Below, one piece after another: positions 40,310 to 44,239 of a stretch of DNA of 44,424 bases. The stretch lies in NCBI GenBank assembly GCA_012838125.1, contig DUPW01000021.1, positions 1-44,424 of the forward strand, given 5' to 3'. The position numbers and the translations under genes are program-made. Source of the DNA: Papillibacter sp. GTDB taxonomy: Bacteria; Bacillota; Clostridia; Oscillospirales; Oscillospiraceae. The notes below the pieces were generated by a model that searched no databases, was not told where the DNA came from, and saw nothing but the letters and a program-made list of their open reading frames with translations. The stretch's first letter is position 1; the number at the start of each line of letters is the position of its first letter.

Positions 40310-40570
40310 ATGTTTGAATATGTAAAGAGGCTCCAGTACCCGGTGAATATTAAAACACCGAACCCGGCACTGGCGAAATTCATTATATCGCAATACGGCG
40401 GCCCGGACGGTGAGCTTGCCGCCTCCCTGCGGTACCTCAGCCAGCGCTTTTCAATGCCGTACCCCGAACTGAAAGGGCTGCTGACCGACATAGGTACGGG
40501 GTTTCCACTTTTTACCACCTGCGCCGCACGCCAAGCGCGCCGCCGCATCCGAAGAATAAGCCGCAATTAA
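40310..40570 (+). CDS. cotJC: cotJC 5' part (interrupted spore-coat Mn catalase)
   Basis: Codons 1-63 are a clear CotJC N-terminus (LQYPVNIKTPNPALAKFI, GGPDGELAASLRYLSQRF, KGLLTDIGT) with the first predicted Mn ligand E35. After 40498 similarity stops and 23 unrelated Arg-rich residues read into the insertion before TAA at 40568. The remaining 135 codons resume at 43832 in a frame that is restored by crossover in AGGTAC. GAGAGGGGG lies 10 nt upstream of ATG 40310, directly after the cotJAB stop. As it stands the product would be an inactive fragment. Confidence 0.92.
   Translation: MFEYVKRLQYPVNIKTPNPALAKFIISQYGGPDGELAASLRYLSQRFSMPYPELKGLLTDIGTGFPLFTTCAARQARRRIRRISRN
40480..40497 (+). repeat. 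Left attachment-site core of the cotJC element
   Basis: This 18-mer (GCTGACCGACATAGGTAC) is 14/18 identical to 43813-43830, with the last six bases (AGGTAC, 40492-40497) identical. The cotJC reading frame breaks exactly at its right end. Confidence 0.8.
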
Positions 40571-40685
40571 CGCTTAACGCCGGTGCTATTGGGGAATGCA
40601 GCAAATCAAAAAACGGGATAATGCGGAAATGTACGGGGCAAAACCTGCCCGCGGCGCATTGCCGCCTCATACGCCGCAGTCTCCT

Positions 40686-41987
40686 TTACCCCACCACGCC
40701 ATAAATGAGGGGCTGCTCATGGGGCTTTTCCGGAGAAATGCTGATGGCGCGGCGCAAAAACGCCACGGCGTCGGGAATTTTCTCTTTATTTGACGTGTGG
40801 AGCACAGCAAGTGTTCCCCCTTTACGGCAGGCGTCCCCCGTCTTACTGCGCAGGACGAGGCCGGCGACGGGGTCAATGGCATCCCCCGCCTTTTCGCGCC
40901 CCGCGCCGAGGACAGCCGCAGCTTTTCCGATAAGCTCCGCGTCCATAAAGCGGATATAGCCCTCCTCCTCCGCCTTAAACTCCACCTGAACGGGCGCGAC
41001 GCCGAGTTTTTCAGGGCTTTCGATAAAGAACGTATCGCCCCCCTGCCGCGCAATCCACTCACGGAATTTGTAAAGCGCCGCCCCGTCGCGCAGGGCCGTA
41101 TTCACCTTTTCAAGGCTCTCCTCATACGCCCACCCGCGGGAAAGGCAGAGCATCCGGGCGGAAAGCTCCGAGCAGACCTGCACGAGGTCTGCCGGACCGC
41201 GGCCGGAAAGCACCTCCACCGCCTCCAAAACCTCCAGGGCGTTGCCCACGGCTTTTCCGAGGGGGATATCCATATTGGTGAGAACTGCCGTAACCCGCCG
41301 GCCGCTCAACGTGCCGATATCCACCATGGCGCGGGCAAGGCGCTCGGCGTCCTCCTTCGTCTTCATAAAGGCGCCGCTGCCCACTTTGACGTCCAGAACG
41401 ATGCTTTTCGCGCCGGAGCCCAGCTTCTTGCTCATGATGCTCGACGCAATAAGCGGGACGCTTTCCACCGTGGCCGTCACGTCCCGCAGGGCGTAGATTT
41501 TCTTATCGGCGGGGGCTAAGCGCCCCGACTGCCCCACAACAGCGATGCCAATCTCCCGCACCTGTTCCATAAACGCCTCACGGCTCATCTCCGTCTCATA
41601 GCCCGGGATGGCCTCCAGCTTGTCCACCGTGCCGCCGGTGTGGCCCAGGCCGCGGCCGGACATTTTCGCCACGGTGCCGCCGAGAGCGGCCACGATGGGC
41701 GCCACGATGAGGGTCGTCTTATCTCCGACGCCGCCTGTAGAGTGTTTGTCCACCGTGGCGTCCCCAAAGTTGGAAAGGTCCACCGTATCCCCCGAGCGCA
41801 TCATGGCAAGGGTGAGGGTTTTCAGCTCCTGCGGCGTCATCCCCTGAAAGTAGACGGCCATGAGCAGAGCCGCCACCTGATAGTCGGGAACATCGCCCTT
41901 TACATAGCCTTCCACCACAAACTCAATTTCCTGATCGGACAGCTCCAGACCGTCCCGCTTTTTTTGAATGACGTCGTACATCCGCAT
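40686..41987 (-). CDS. pdp: Pyrimidine-nucleoside phosphorylase
   Basis: The 433-residue enzyme phosphorolyses uridine and thymidine to free base and (deoxy)ribose-1-phosphate. It shows the family signature SGRGLGHTGGTVDKLEAIPG in segments, VDKHSTGGVGDKTTLI (phosphate site), and KKLGSGAKSIVLDVKVGSGAFMK. It appears complete. ATG 41987 follows GAGGTG at 7 nt and a vegetative-type promoter. It is cargo of the cotJC element: present in vegetative cells and the forespore, but lost from the mother cell if excision occurs. No other nucleoside-salvage gene is nearby. Confidence 0.94.
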   Translation of the reverse strand: MRMYDVIQKKRDGLELSDQEIEFVVEGYVKGDVPDYQVAALLMAVYFQGMTPQELKTLTLAMMRSGDTVDLSNFGDATVDKHSTGGVGDKTTLIVAPIVAALGGTVAKMSGRGLGHTGGTVDKLEAIPGYETEMSREAFMEQVREIGIAVVGQSGRLAPADKKIYALRDVTATVESVPLIASSIMSKKLGSGAKSIVLDVKVGSGAFMKTKEDAERLARAMVDIGTLSGRRVTAVLTNMDIPLGKAVGNALEVLEAVEVLSGRGPADLVQVCSELSARMLCLSRGWAYEESLEKVNTALRDGAALYKFREWIARQGGDTFFIESPEKLGVAPVQVEFKAEEEGYIRFMDAELIGKAAAVLGAGREKAGDAIDPVAGLVLRSKTGDACRKGGTLAVLHTSNKEKIPDAVAFLRRAISISPEKPHEQPLIYGVVG

Positions 41988-42018
41988 GCCGCCGCACCTC
42001 GCAAACCAGTTTGCTTTT

Positions 42019-42047
42019 ATCATACCACAATTACCCTGTTTTGAAAA
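42019..42047 (-). promoter_or_regulatory. Candidate vegetative promoter of pdp
   Basis: On the minus strand TATGAT (42024-42019) is preceded by TTTCAA (spacer 16) or TTTTCA (spacer 17). A small inverted repeat CAAAC-CA-GTTTG (42002-42013) lies near the start of the RNA. It suggests pdp is expressed independently of sporulation. Confidence 0.45.
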
Positions 42048-42054
42048 CGAAATC

Positions 42055-42243
42055 CTACAGAGCATCGCCGTGAAGCGCCCCCTCAAACAGGGACACATTC
42101 TCCGCAAGGTAGACGGTGACGGCCCCCTCCTCCGCCACCGTCACCCTGTCAATAAGTCCGAGATAAAATGCGTCATTTTCGTCTGCTCCGGTAAGCAGAT
42201 TAGTAAGAATCCGGGCAATATCGGTATTTGAATATTCGTTCAA
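42055..42243 (-). CDS. 62-residue protein with TTG start inside the element
   Basis: The ORF has a good ribosome site (AGGAGA, 7 nt from TTG 42243). The sequence is acidic, with NTDIARILTNLLTGADENDA, LIDRVTVAEEGAVTVYLAEN and no Cys. The second half resembles the closing strand region of large serine recombinases (L-x-x-V-x-x-I-x-V-x-x-x-G), so it may be a detached recombinase tail or an accessory factor. This resemblance is weak. It lies between pdp and the recombinase on the same strand, with a sigma-E-like -10 62 bp upstream. Confidence 0.5.
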   Translation of the reverse strand: MNEYSNTDIARILTNLLTGADENDAFYLGLIDRVTVAEEGAVTVYLAENVSLFEGALHGDAL

Positions 42244-42304
42244 CTTGTTGTCTCCTATTCTGAACCAAGATTCAATTATGCAATATTCTGATGTACTTTT
42301 CGAT

Positions 42305-42332
42305 TTTGTATGCGTTCCGTCACTGATTTCGC
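42305..42332 (-). promoter_or_regulatory. Possible sigma-E-like promoter for the 62-residue ORF
   Basis: On the minus strand CATACAAA (42312-42305) matches seven of eight positions of the sigma-E -10. GCGAAAT (42332-42326) at 13 nt matches five of seven -35 positions. Weak, but consistent with mother-cell expression of element genes. Confidence 0.3.
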
Positions 42333-42419
42333 CGCAAAATCGTGCAAGTTTGAGCAAAGAGACATTTCACAATTGTGGTTTTTGCCGCTGTGAACGGACA
42401 GGCCGTATTGTGGGCGCAA

Positions 42420-42455
42420 CCAAAGCCCCAACGCCGTCTGACGCCGCCTTTGGGG
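42420..42455 (-). terminator. Weak terminator-like hairpin after the recombinase
   Basis: GCCCCAA and TTGGGGC arms flank an inner region that can also pair (CGTC/GACG). Reading leftward the tail is tttggttg, a poor T tract. It separates the recombinase from the 62-residue ORF. The 42244-42419 stretch otherwise holds only the leader of that ORF. Confidence 0.4.
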
Positions 42456-42459
42456 CGTA

Positions 42460-43599
42460 TTAAGTCAGCTCCTCCCCTTTCTTTCTGGCGGTGCGCTCCC
42501 CTATCCCCTGCAAAAGGGATGGAGGCGTGGTCTTAAATGCGTCATTCAGGGCCTTTCGCACCGCCTCAGAGAGCTCCTTTTCACTCAGACTGCGCCGTTG
42601 AGAGCAAGCGCAAGGGGCGTACCACCGCCGGTACGGCTGGCCTGCGGCGTTTTTCCGTGTCCGGGCGAAGAAGGCGGCGCCGCAGGTTTCGCACGTGATT
42701 TTGCCGGACAGTGCGTAACGGCTGCCGTGCCCACCCTCCCCGTTTCGATTCGTACTGCGCCGGGCCAGTTCCGCCTGAACCGCCTCCCAGACGGCCCGCG
42801 GGATAATGGCCTCGTGGTGGTCCCGCAGGATAACGAAGGGGACTTCGCCTTTGTTGCGCCGCTTTTTATGGGTGAGGAAATCGGGTGTGTATGTTTTACG
42901 CTGGATGAGGTCGCCGCAGTATTTTTCGTTTTTGAGGATTTTTAAGACCGTCGCCCCGGACCACGACGCCCCGCCGGTGTATGTGGGCACCCCCTGCTCC
43001 GTGAGGACCCGGGCAATGGCCCGCACCCCCATGCGCTCGTTTAAGAACATCTCGTAAATTCGGCGCACAAGGGCCGCGCCCTCTTGGTTTACTGTCATGG
43101 CACCATCCTCGACGTCGTAACCTAACAGGCTCCTGCCGAACACGACGCCTTTTTCCATCTGCCGCAGCTGGCCCCACCGCACGCGCTCGCTGGTCCTGCG
43201 ACTCTCCTCCTGCGCCACCGCCGCCATGATGCCAAGGCGCAGTTCTGCGTCACCGTCTACGGTGGAGATGCCGTCGCTTAAGAAAATGACCCCCACGCCC
43301 CAGCGCCGCAGAAGCCGGGTGTAATGCACCGCGTCCAGCAGGTTGCGGGAAAAGCGGCTCACCTCTTTCGTAATGACAAGGTCAAACAGGCCCCGCCGCG
43401 CGTCCTCCATCATGCGCAGAAACCCGTCCCGCTTTTCCGTCTGGGTGCCGGTGATGCCCTCGTCGGCGTAGATGGCGTAAAGCGTCCACCCTTCCCGCAT
43501 GCGGATGTACTGGTCAAAATAGGCTTTCTGATTTTCAAAGGAGCCGGCTTGATCAGGTGTATCCGTGGACACGCGGCAGTAGGCAGCAACCCGCGTCAT
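42460..43599 (-). CDS. Large serine recombinase of the cotJC element
   Basis: The 379-residue protein has a resolvase catalytic domain (about 2-145) with nucleophile S11 in YCRVSTD, the TKEVSRFSRN and AVAQEESRRTSERVRWG motifs, a recombinase domain (about 155-270; GVRAIARVLTEQGVPTYTG, ILKNEKYCGDLIQRKTYTPD in segments) and a zinc-ribbon with C303-x2-C306 and C330-x-C332. It is shorter than most large serine recombinases (usually over 450 residues) and lacks an obvious long coiled coil. It starts inside the end of the 49-residue ORF (ATGA) and lies 226 bp from the right junction, as integrases usually do. Confidence 0.93.
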   Translation of the reverse strand: MTRVAAYCRVSTDTPDQAGSFENQKAYFDQYIRMREGWTLYAIYADEGITGTQTEKRDGFLRMMEDARRGLFDLVITKEVSRFSRNLLDAVHYTRLLRRWGVGVIFLSDGISTVDGDAELRLGIMAAVAQEESRRTSERVRWGQLRQMEKGVVFGRSLLGYDVEDGAMTVNQEGAALVRRIYEMFLNERMGVRAIARVLTEQGVPTYTGGASWSGATVLKILKNEKYCGDLIQRKTYTPDFLTHKKRRNKGEVPFVILRDHHEAIIPRAVWEAVQAELARRSTNRNGEGGHGSRYALSGKITCETCGAAFFARTRKNAAGQPYRRWYAPCACSQRRSLSEKELSEAVRKALNDAFKTTPPSLLQGIGERTARKKGEELT

Positions 43600-43745
43600 C
43601 GTTTCCCGAGCACGCGCCGCAGCGCAGTAAGATACCGGTCGTACCGCAGTGCGCCGCGGCGGTACAGCTCGTAAAGGGCCGCCGCCATGGCGTAGCGGCG
43701 GACGTTTTCCATCCTCTTTTCGTCTTTAACCACCGAAATAACCAT
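43596..43745 (-). CDS. 49-residue ORF coupled to the recombinase
   Basis: The ORF starts at ATG 43745 behind GGGAGGTG and ends in TGA that overlaps the recombinase ATG. The product is basic and helical (VRRYAMAAALYELYRRGALR, then YLTALRRVL), resembling the short SHOCT-like ORFs found before clostridial serine recombinases. Tight coupling and size make it a candidate recombination directionality factor, as with SprB for SprA in Bacillus, but this is inference. Confidence 0.75.
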   Translation of the reverse strand: MVISVVKDEKRMENVRRYAMAAALYELYRRGALRYDRYLTALRRVLGKR

Positions 43746-43765
43746 CGGAGCACCTCCCTACTGGA

Positions 43766-43794
43766 TGTGTATGAGGCACCCAGGGCCTTTTTGC
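43766..43794 (-). promoter_or_regulatory. Sigma-E-like promoter of the recombinase operon
   Basis: On the minus strand GCAAAAA (43794-43788) matches six of seven positions of the sigma-E -35 (KMATAWW). After exactly 14 nt, CATACACA (43773-43766) matches seven of eight positions of the -10 (CATACAMT). Transcription would begin just before the GGGAGGTG ribosome site of the 49-residue ORF. This would confine the recombinase to the mother cell. Confidence 0.6.
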
Positions 43795-43804
43795 CTGTCC
43801 ACTG

Positions 43805-44239
43805 GTGAAAATGCTTAACGATACAGGTACCGAGGAACTCAGCCACCTTGAAATCGTGGGTTCCATTGTCCACCAGCTTACCAGAAAGATGACGATAGAA
43901 GAGGTCAAAGCCGCCGGTTTGGAACCTTATTTCGTGGACCATACGGCGGGTGTGTATCCGCAGTTTGCGTCAGGCACCCCCTGGACCGCCGCCACGATTC
44001 AGTCCTCCGGCGACCTCATCGCCGACCTGACGGAAAACCTCGCCGCCGAACAGAAGGCGCGCAAGACCTACGATAACATTCTCCGCATGTCCGACGACCC
44101 GGACGTCAACAACGTCATCCGCTTCCTGCGGGAGAGGGAAATCGTGCACTATCAGCGTTTCGGCGAAGGCCTGAGGCTGGCTCAGGAGCGCCTGAACCAG
44201 AAGAACATATACGCCATCAACCCCAGCTTTGATCGCTAA
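43805..44239 (+). CDS. cotJC: cotJC 3' part (interrupted spore-coat Mn catalase)
   Basis: From 43832 the 135 codons complete CotJC: EELSHLEIVGSIVHQL, HTAGVYPQFASGTPWTAA, AAEQKARKTYDNIL and EREIVHYQRFGEGL. Numbered in the rebuilt 198-residue protein, the predicted Mn ligands are E65, H68, E136 and H169, with the spacings seen in manganese catalases (3 and 33). The open frame extends left to GTG 43805 inside the element, but there is no ribosome site, so this part is unlikely to be made before excision. A strong terminator follows. Confidence 0.92.
   Translation: MKMLNDTGTEELSHLEIVGSIVHQLTRKMTIEEVKAAGLEPYFVDHTAGVYPQFASGTPWTAATIQSSGDLIADLTENLAAEQKARKTYDNILRMSDDPDVNNVIRFLREREIVHYQRFGEGLRLAQERLNQKNIYAINPSFDR
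43813..43830 (+). repeat. Right attachment-site core of the cotJC element
   Basis: GCTTAACGATACAGGTAC is the 14/18 partner of the left site. AGGTAC is at 43825-43830, and CotJC similarity begins with the next codon (Glu-Glu-Leu-Ser-His). Confidence 0.8.

Follow-up and report, generated by a model that had tools for sequence, protein, structure and literature searches.

A genus-conserved 3.3-kb element encoding a large serine recombinase splits the spore-coat gene cotJC in Papillibacter sp.

The split cotJC gene

The window analysed here is a stretch of 44,424 nucleotides of contig DUPW01000021.1 from Papillibacter sp. (assembly GCA_012838125.1), a metagenome-assembled genome (MAG; G000) that is 95.85% complete in 138 contigs. 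In this window the spore-coat gene cotJC is cut at Gly62-Thr63 by an intervening element, and the resumed frame ends with its stop at 44239 (Table 1). Two copies of AGGTAC stand 3,333 bp apart, the core corresponding to codons 61-63, and joining them gives an in-frame protein of 198 amino acids (aa). This rebuilt CotJC matches the Pfam Mn_catalase model (2.8e-56), with residues 1-63 falling on model positions 1-64, and matches the solved Mn-catalase 1jku over residues 1-187 (1.5e-19). The metal ligands E35, E65, H68, E136 and H169 are all in place, as a check of the residue letters confirmed. By these matches the joined protein belongs to the CotJC Mn-catalase fold family, carries the five ligands and is a predicted catalase. 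An earlier sequence-only reading of the window had described the break with its 3,333-bp gap and the resumption up to 44239, the AGGTAC crossover leading to 198 residues, and the five ligands; the sequence, the two Pfam halves and a recomputation of the core, the element size and the product length bear these out. It had also named a second intact cotJC in the genome, with this copy decaying, among the findings that would speak against it, and a search of the MAG (E <= 10) found no second cotJC.

The two 200-bp neighbourhoods of the junctions share 23 6-mers, so a 6-bp core alone is within chance, and another in-phase 6-mer ties with AGGTAC in the core listing for the window. What goes beyond chance is the position of the core and its recurrence across loci. 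A shared core of 5-14 bp was present at codons 58-64 in 22 of the 23 loci that hold both cotJC halves; the script lists in-phase cores only, and in the window, in G001 and G003 (two of the five other genomes of the genus, G001-G005) and in SRR12081302 this core either ties with another or is shorter than the longest one listed. Seventeen of these 23 loci give an open join of 198-210 aa, including Anaerocolumna AGMB13025, whose join has a divergent end. Among the six that do not, the first exon is displaced by a second element in G001, G029 and G034, a contig end intervenes at locus L140, the 3' end is broken at L147, and Anaerocolumna MB42-C2 has no exact core among those listed.

Table 1 Features at the split cotJC locus in the window (LSR, large serine recombinase; PyNP, pyrimidine-nucleoside phosphorylase; ORF, open reading frame).
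Feature	Position	Strand	Basis
Fused cotJA-cotJB frame, 316 aa	39359..40309	+	Pfam CotJB 1.7e-23, CotJA 2.7e-11; directly upstream of cotJC
cotJC 5' part, codons 1-62/63	40310..40497	+	Pfam Mn_catalase model positions 1-64
Left crossover core AGGTAC (attL-like)	40492..40497	+	Sequence; core and phase computed
Intervening element, 3,333 bp	40492..43824	none	Sequence; G001-G005 share the order of PyNP and LSR
PyNP	40686..41987	-	Pfam Glycos_transf_3, Glycos_trans_3N, PYNP_C
Detached C-terminal remnant of the recombinase frame	42067..42222	-	Aligned to the G004 recombinase tail
Stretch with in-frame stops cutting the recombinase, limits approximate	42255..42465	-	No G004 counterpart; two stops in the recombinase frame
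LSR, truncated, 379 aa	42460..43599	-	Pfam Resolvase 5.4e-30, Recombinase 1.9e-25, zinc ribbon 8e-06
ORF of 49 aa that overlaps the start of the recombinase frame, candidate directionality factor	43596..43745	-	A small ORF in this position in all six genus genomes
Promoter-like motif RGACAKGCAAR-N16-MATA ahead of the small ORF	43770..43800	-	Present in all six genus genomes; constant spacing, spacer sequence diverged
Right crossover core AGGTAC (attR-like)	43825..43830	+	Sequence
cotJC 3' part with ligands E65, H68, E136, H169	43825..44239	+	Mn_catalase model positions 61-198

Conservation in the genus

In each of the five other same-genus genomes searched (G001-G005), cotJC is interrupted at the same codon by an element of 3,047-3,758 bp in which PyNP and LSR keep their order. 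Every one of the six genus genomes has a single PyNP gene (E <= 1e-40), and it always lies within the element. The G005 element has an extra ORF of 214 aa between PyNP and the cotJC 5' half (L066:4939-5583). In a tree of 118 LSRs built from their first 360-380 residues, the six genus sequences group in a single clade (support 1.0), consistent with an old single insertion inherited since.

The ratio of nonsynonymous to synonymous substitution rates (dN/dS) was 0.025-0.096 for cotJC codons 1-62 (10 pairs, leaving out G001 with its displaced first exon) and 0.021-0.095 for codons 64-197 (15 pairs, one saturated), compared with 0.144-0.342 for the LSR (15 pairs, two saturated) and 0.099-0.296 for PyNP; these values are rough because many synonymous distances exceed 1. 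By these estimates, both parts of cotJC are under strong purifying selection in the genus. The two halves in the window, compared with those of its sister G004, gave 0.025 and 0.021, indicating no decay.

Contents of the element

PyNP, LSR and the 49-aa ORF are all encoded on the strand opposite to cotJC. PyNP has a single match in its own genome at E <= 10. No phage genes were recognised in the window's element, where Pfam named PyNP and the LSR and nothing in the two small frames tested; the 49-aa ORF had no Pfam match. A small ORF of some kind stands upstream of the LSR in 41 of 82 upstream regions, about 27 of which look alike by eye (a weak count), while a regular expression for it matched 1 of the 82, the pattern being too strict.

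By its resolvase, recombinase and zinc-ribbon domains, the recombinase of the window's element is a large serine recombinase. Its truncation adds to what the sequence-only reading had described. An insert of about 200 bp, which has no counterpart in G004, separates the 379-aa product from the C-terminal remnant, and the product is regarded as a truncated derivative because the coiled coil and the last part of the zinc domain are absent. The LSR is 489-500 aa long in G001, G002, G003 and G005 and 432 aa long in G004, where most of the coiled-coil region, placed by alignment, is also missing. Between the window and G004, the proportions of nonsynonymous (pN) and synonymous (pS) differences were 0.095 and 0.499 over the LSR body (codons 1-340), which is constrained, and 0.251 and 0.543 over the detached tail, where constraint is weaker. 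Elsewhere in the genome, the stretch cutting the recombinase has matches of 16-32 bases only. A GC-rich, hairpin-like sequence was noted by eye within this stretch, at 42420-42465.

The structure predicted for the G004 recombinase resembles solved serine integrases (best E 5.5e-23), although the template modelling (TM) scores are low, at 0.3-0.5. The structure models are middling (predicted local distance difference test, pLDDT, 73.8 and 77.8; predicted TM-score, pTM, 0.44 and 0.49) and decide nothing on activity. The window's copy of the element may be stuck, or it may work in shortened form. Since the recombinase is without its C-terminal part, excision in the window would need the shortened enzyme, outside help or a strain-level difference.

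Upstream of the element, the fused cotJA-cotJB frame has a long Asn/Pro-rich N-terminal part, which is also present in genus relatives.

A promoter-like motif ahead of the recombinase operon

In all six genus members, the interval from the right core to the small ORF contains GGACAGGCAAA-N15-NMATA. The first part, GGACAGGCAAA, is exact in four of them and has one difference in another and two in the sixth; at a constant distance of 15 nt there follows an 8-mer in which ATA occupies an unchanging position. Mean pairwise identity among the six was 0.91 in the motif, 0.62 in the 8-mer and 0.34 in the spacer; because the motif was recognised by inspecting these same six sequences, the figures describe its conservation rather than test it. 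Allowing up to two mismatches, the motif's sole match in the window is itself, with zero mismatches. At that looseness, 41 of 100 shuffles contain at least one match, so the weight of the motif lies in its conservation.

CATACA is a sigma-E type -10 element; compared with the sigma-E, sigma-K and SpoIIID consensus sequences, the motif fits loosely. The -10 part of the motif resembles CATACA in two of the six genus members and does so more loosely in the other four. In the window's genome, SpoIIID scores above the cut-off. A SigK-like gene scores just below the SigK cut-off, of which the B. subtilis control also falls short. A recombinase fragment lies at 7-921 of locus L200 (G000:C38:1-5000), about 0.6 kb before the whole sigK-like gene. 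It was considered as a skin-type element and rejected, sigK being whole there.

cotJC as a recurrent target in the family

A tally was made over 100 family genomes of at least 95% completeness, the window's included, after 10 rows had been dropped as distant paralogues (33-39% identity). A cotJC orthologue was present in 91 of them: full-length in 56, full-length with an extra fragment in 2, and not full-length in 33. Among the rest, one genome had a distant paralogue only and eight had no match. A wider search gave a match in 317 of 400 family genomes; the rows listed from it are all full-length, so the counts here are those of the 100 genomes. At least two fragments were found in 31 of the 33 genomes without a full-length gene, whereas G135 and G149 rest on one; the count of broken genes is partly by inference because some fragments are on different contigs.

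The breaks lie near codons 30, 63, 134 and 172, about 2-6 codons from the ligands E35, E65/H68, E136 and H169, and 11 of the 33 broken genomes have at least two break positions. The positions at 134 and 172 are less sure than those at 30 and 63 because cores are short or unresolved in several loci: G182 and G067 have no convincing core, and G010 has none. In G177, three cotJC exons and two different recombinases lie on one contig within about 10 kb (L201, G177:C4:35000-47000), and G058 likewise has three exons on one contig. At L069 (G010:C37:43100-46241), extra copies of the last 26-38 or so cotJC codons stand downstream, as if elements near codon 172 carried their own gene end.

In the LSR tree, the ten recombinases at site 30 form one clade (0.995), as do the six at site 134 (1.0) and three of a second type at site 63 (1.0). 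A clade of 97 (0.927) takes in ninety site-63 recombinases, among them those of the genus; its other seven members have no cotJC piece in the fetched flank. By their places in this tree, the recombinases sort by insertion position in cotJC. GTDB contigs gave 235 confirmed LSR relatives, of which 80 were kept; a cotJC piece stands beside 72 of these 80 and is lacking beside eight. Complete Anaerocolumna chromosomes are among the hosts of such loci. The three IMG/VR contigs closest to the recombinase (L226, L227 and L228, of 80 kept) hold cotJC pieces, so such elements have been filed as viral.

The cargo differs between these elements. Among the fetched loci scanned, PyNP lies inside the element only in the window's genus, the other match (L123) being outside its element. 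Cargo of the L147 element of Flavonifractor includes a peroxide-stress YaaA, a dehydrogenase and an rRNA methylase, and that of L089 a peroxiredoxin and a helicase. Lachnospiraceae cotJC elements encode a Spo0A-family regulator with Response_reg and Spo0A_C domains (L129:8363-9169 and L140:2323-3108), and each of the genomes with L129, L140 and L146 has two Spo0A_C genes.

Joined forms of cotJC

For the Flavonifractor locus L154, an intact public CotJC of 200 aa (P0121), whose cluster represents 7 contigs, equals the predicted join at 199 of 200 residues. To judge from this match, a whole CotJC form exists in the L154 species group, which is not proof that excision made it. The exact joined 27-mer was absent from IMG/VR.

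Interpretation and alternatives

A genus-conserved, 3.3-kb derivative of a mobile element splits the sole cotJC found, and we consider it probable that it is precisely excised in the mother cell in relatives with a full-length recombinase. A single early insertion into cotJC would have been kept through the genus, and the element holds an LSR and the only PyNP found. The small ORF-recombinase operon would be expressed in the mother cell from a promoter of sigma-E/SpoIIID type, with the 49-aa ORF acting as directionality factor and the crossover taking place at the GG of Gly-62. Precise excision in the sporulating mother cell would then rejoin cotJC, so that the catalase is switched on only in spore-making cells. 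The PyNP gene may keep the element from being lost, because permanent loss would cost the cell the salvage enzyme.

Several points weigh against this reading. The recombinase in the window is truncated, and those of Flavonifractor at L147, L150 and L154 have only 284-292 aa and end at the cotJC junction. No intact CotJC above about 87-88% identity to the joined G000 or G003 protein was found among the 120 matches listed for each, and the intact form matching L154 could be an empty site that never held an element. The upstream part of the promoter-like motif fits the SpoIIID consensus loosely (7-10 of 10 positions); in G001, G002 and G005 another place in the segment matches better, and in G003 another matches equally well. 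The descriptive nature of the motif identities and the roughness of the dN/dS values count on the same side, and such recombinases commonly insert into conserved coding DNA with no host programme involved. The compact skin-like element proposed by the sequence-only reading stands as a kind, given the recombinase, the in-frame sites, the sole cotJC found, the conservation in the genus and the promoter-like motif; it does not stand equally for this copy, in which a stop-bearing insert cuts the LSR to 379 aa and to which no near intact CotJC was listed.

We also hold it quite possible, though a little short of an even chance, that cotJC is assembled by DNA rearrangement well beyond the genus. In a third of the family the gene would lie in two or three pieces, separated by independent excisable cassettes with recombinase clades of their own, beside the metal-ligand codons, and the catalase would be made only after one or two timed excisions; the genus cassette, holding the cell's only PyNP, would be costly to lose. 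The same tally can be taken another way, with plain mobile elements landing in a conserved gene that is dispensable and inactivated, and with rare, unprogrammed excision. The breakage in 33 of 91 genomes at four positions suggests that cotJC loss is tolerated, and the size of some elements in cotJC (up to 28.8 kb), the cotJC pieces on the closest IMG/VR contigs and the short LSRs of the window and Flavonifractor suit such an account. Against it, the two halves stay open and selected across a genus in which all six members are split, no other cotJC was found in the genome, and the LSR, the small ORF and the promoter-like motif have been kept; we regard this account as unlikely.

An alternative that concerns the window alone, and is compatible with excision in relatives, is that its element is a fossil: the recombinase would be dead and cotJC permanently off in this lineage, while the kind is or was active elsewhere. 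This is a real possibility that we would still put below even. The insert with its in-frame stops, the weaker constraint on the detached tail, the similar loss of the coiled-coil region in G004 and the lack of a joined form near the window's species among the matches listed all fit a fossil, but the cotJC halves show no decay relative to G004, the LSR body remains constrained, and a MAG consensus may hold a minority or misassembled stretch. Moreover, phiC31 mutants altered within or close to the coiled coil recombine attL and attR without the factor, according to PMC5025042, so loss of the coiled coil need not end excision.

It is very improbable that the two halves are separate chains that assemble without DNA joining. 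An in-frame GTG at 43805 could start the 3' half, but the 5' product continues for 23 foreign residues past the junction, the break parts E35 from the other ligands, and an in-phase core shared at the same codons in 22 of 23 loci would be superfluous. An assembly artefact can practically be dismissed: the window is one contig of a 138-contig MAG and ends 185 bp past cotJC, but G003, a genome in one contig, and complete Anaerocolumna chromosomes show the split too, so it is not a chimera of assembly.

Relation to known systems

The closest parallels include gin, which lies in gerE of Bacillus cereus and is 28.6 kb long with three recombinases and a proven factor, GirX (PMC5595907). Like the element described here, gin is a non-prophage element in a mother-cell sporulation gene, with a serine recombinase, a short direct repeat and in-frame restoration of the target (PMC5595907). 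In contrast, the elements of the window's genus measure 3.0-3.8 kb, have one recombinase and a metabolic gene, and sit in another target; excision is known for gin and is proposed here. The skin element in sigK of Bacillus subtilis and Clostridioides difficile also splits a sporulation gene and has a small factor, for which the window offers a candidate, and in C. difficile the recombinase adjoins the 3' half (PMC5025042), as in the window. Skin differs in being prophage-like and in targeting a sigma factor, whereas the window has a coat enzyme as target and no recognised phage gene.

In SP-beta/spsM, vfbin/spoVFB and yin/yabG, a sporulation gene is likewise broken by an element with a site-specific recombinase; those elements are prophage-like, with one element per gene (PMC10747680), whereas cotJC has four break positions and genes with two breaks. 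The prophage-like subgroup of skin, SP-beta and yin carries phage genes, unlike the window's element and gin. In C. difficile R20291, the attR of prophage phi027 adjoins a cotJC-like gene, which the accessible text of PMC11222575 describes neither as split nor as rejoined. We found no report of an interrupted and rejoined cotJC among the titles and abstracts listed in literature searches that took in few subscription papers. The target gene cotJC thus appears to be new and the cargo is unusual, and the anatomy is that of known skin/gin-type elements.

Judged from the genomes compared, the split of this spore-coat gene is real, old and recurrent, and the element is built like one excised in time with sporulation. 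If the proposed excision is true, programmed DNA joining in sporulation would be common in a large family of anaerobes, beyond a few Bacillus and Clostridium strains. Its target would encode an enzyme rather than a regulator, and several recombinases would each have their own place in this short gene. Such loci would supply natural recombinases with ordered target sites, and sequenced isolates such as those with complete Anaerocolumna chromosomes would be available for tests. The needed metabolic gene inside the element would offer a plausible reason for its persistence.

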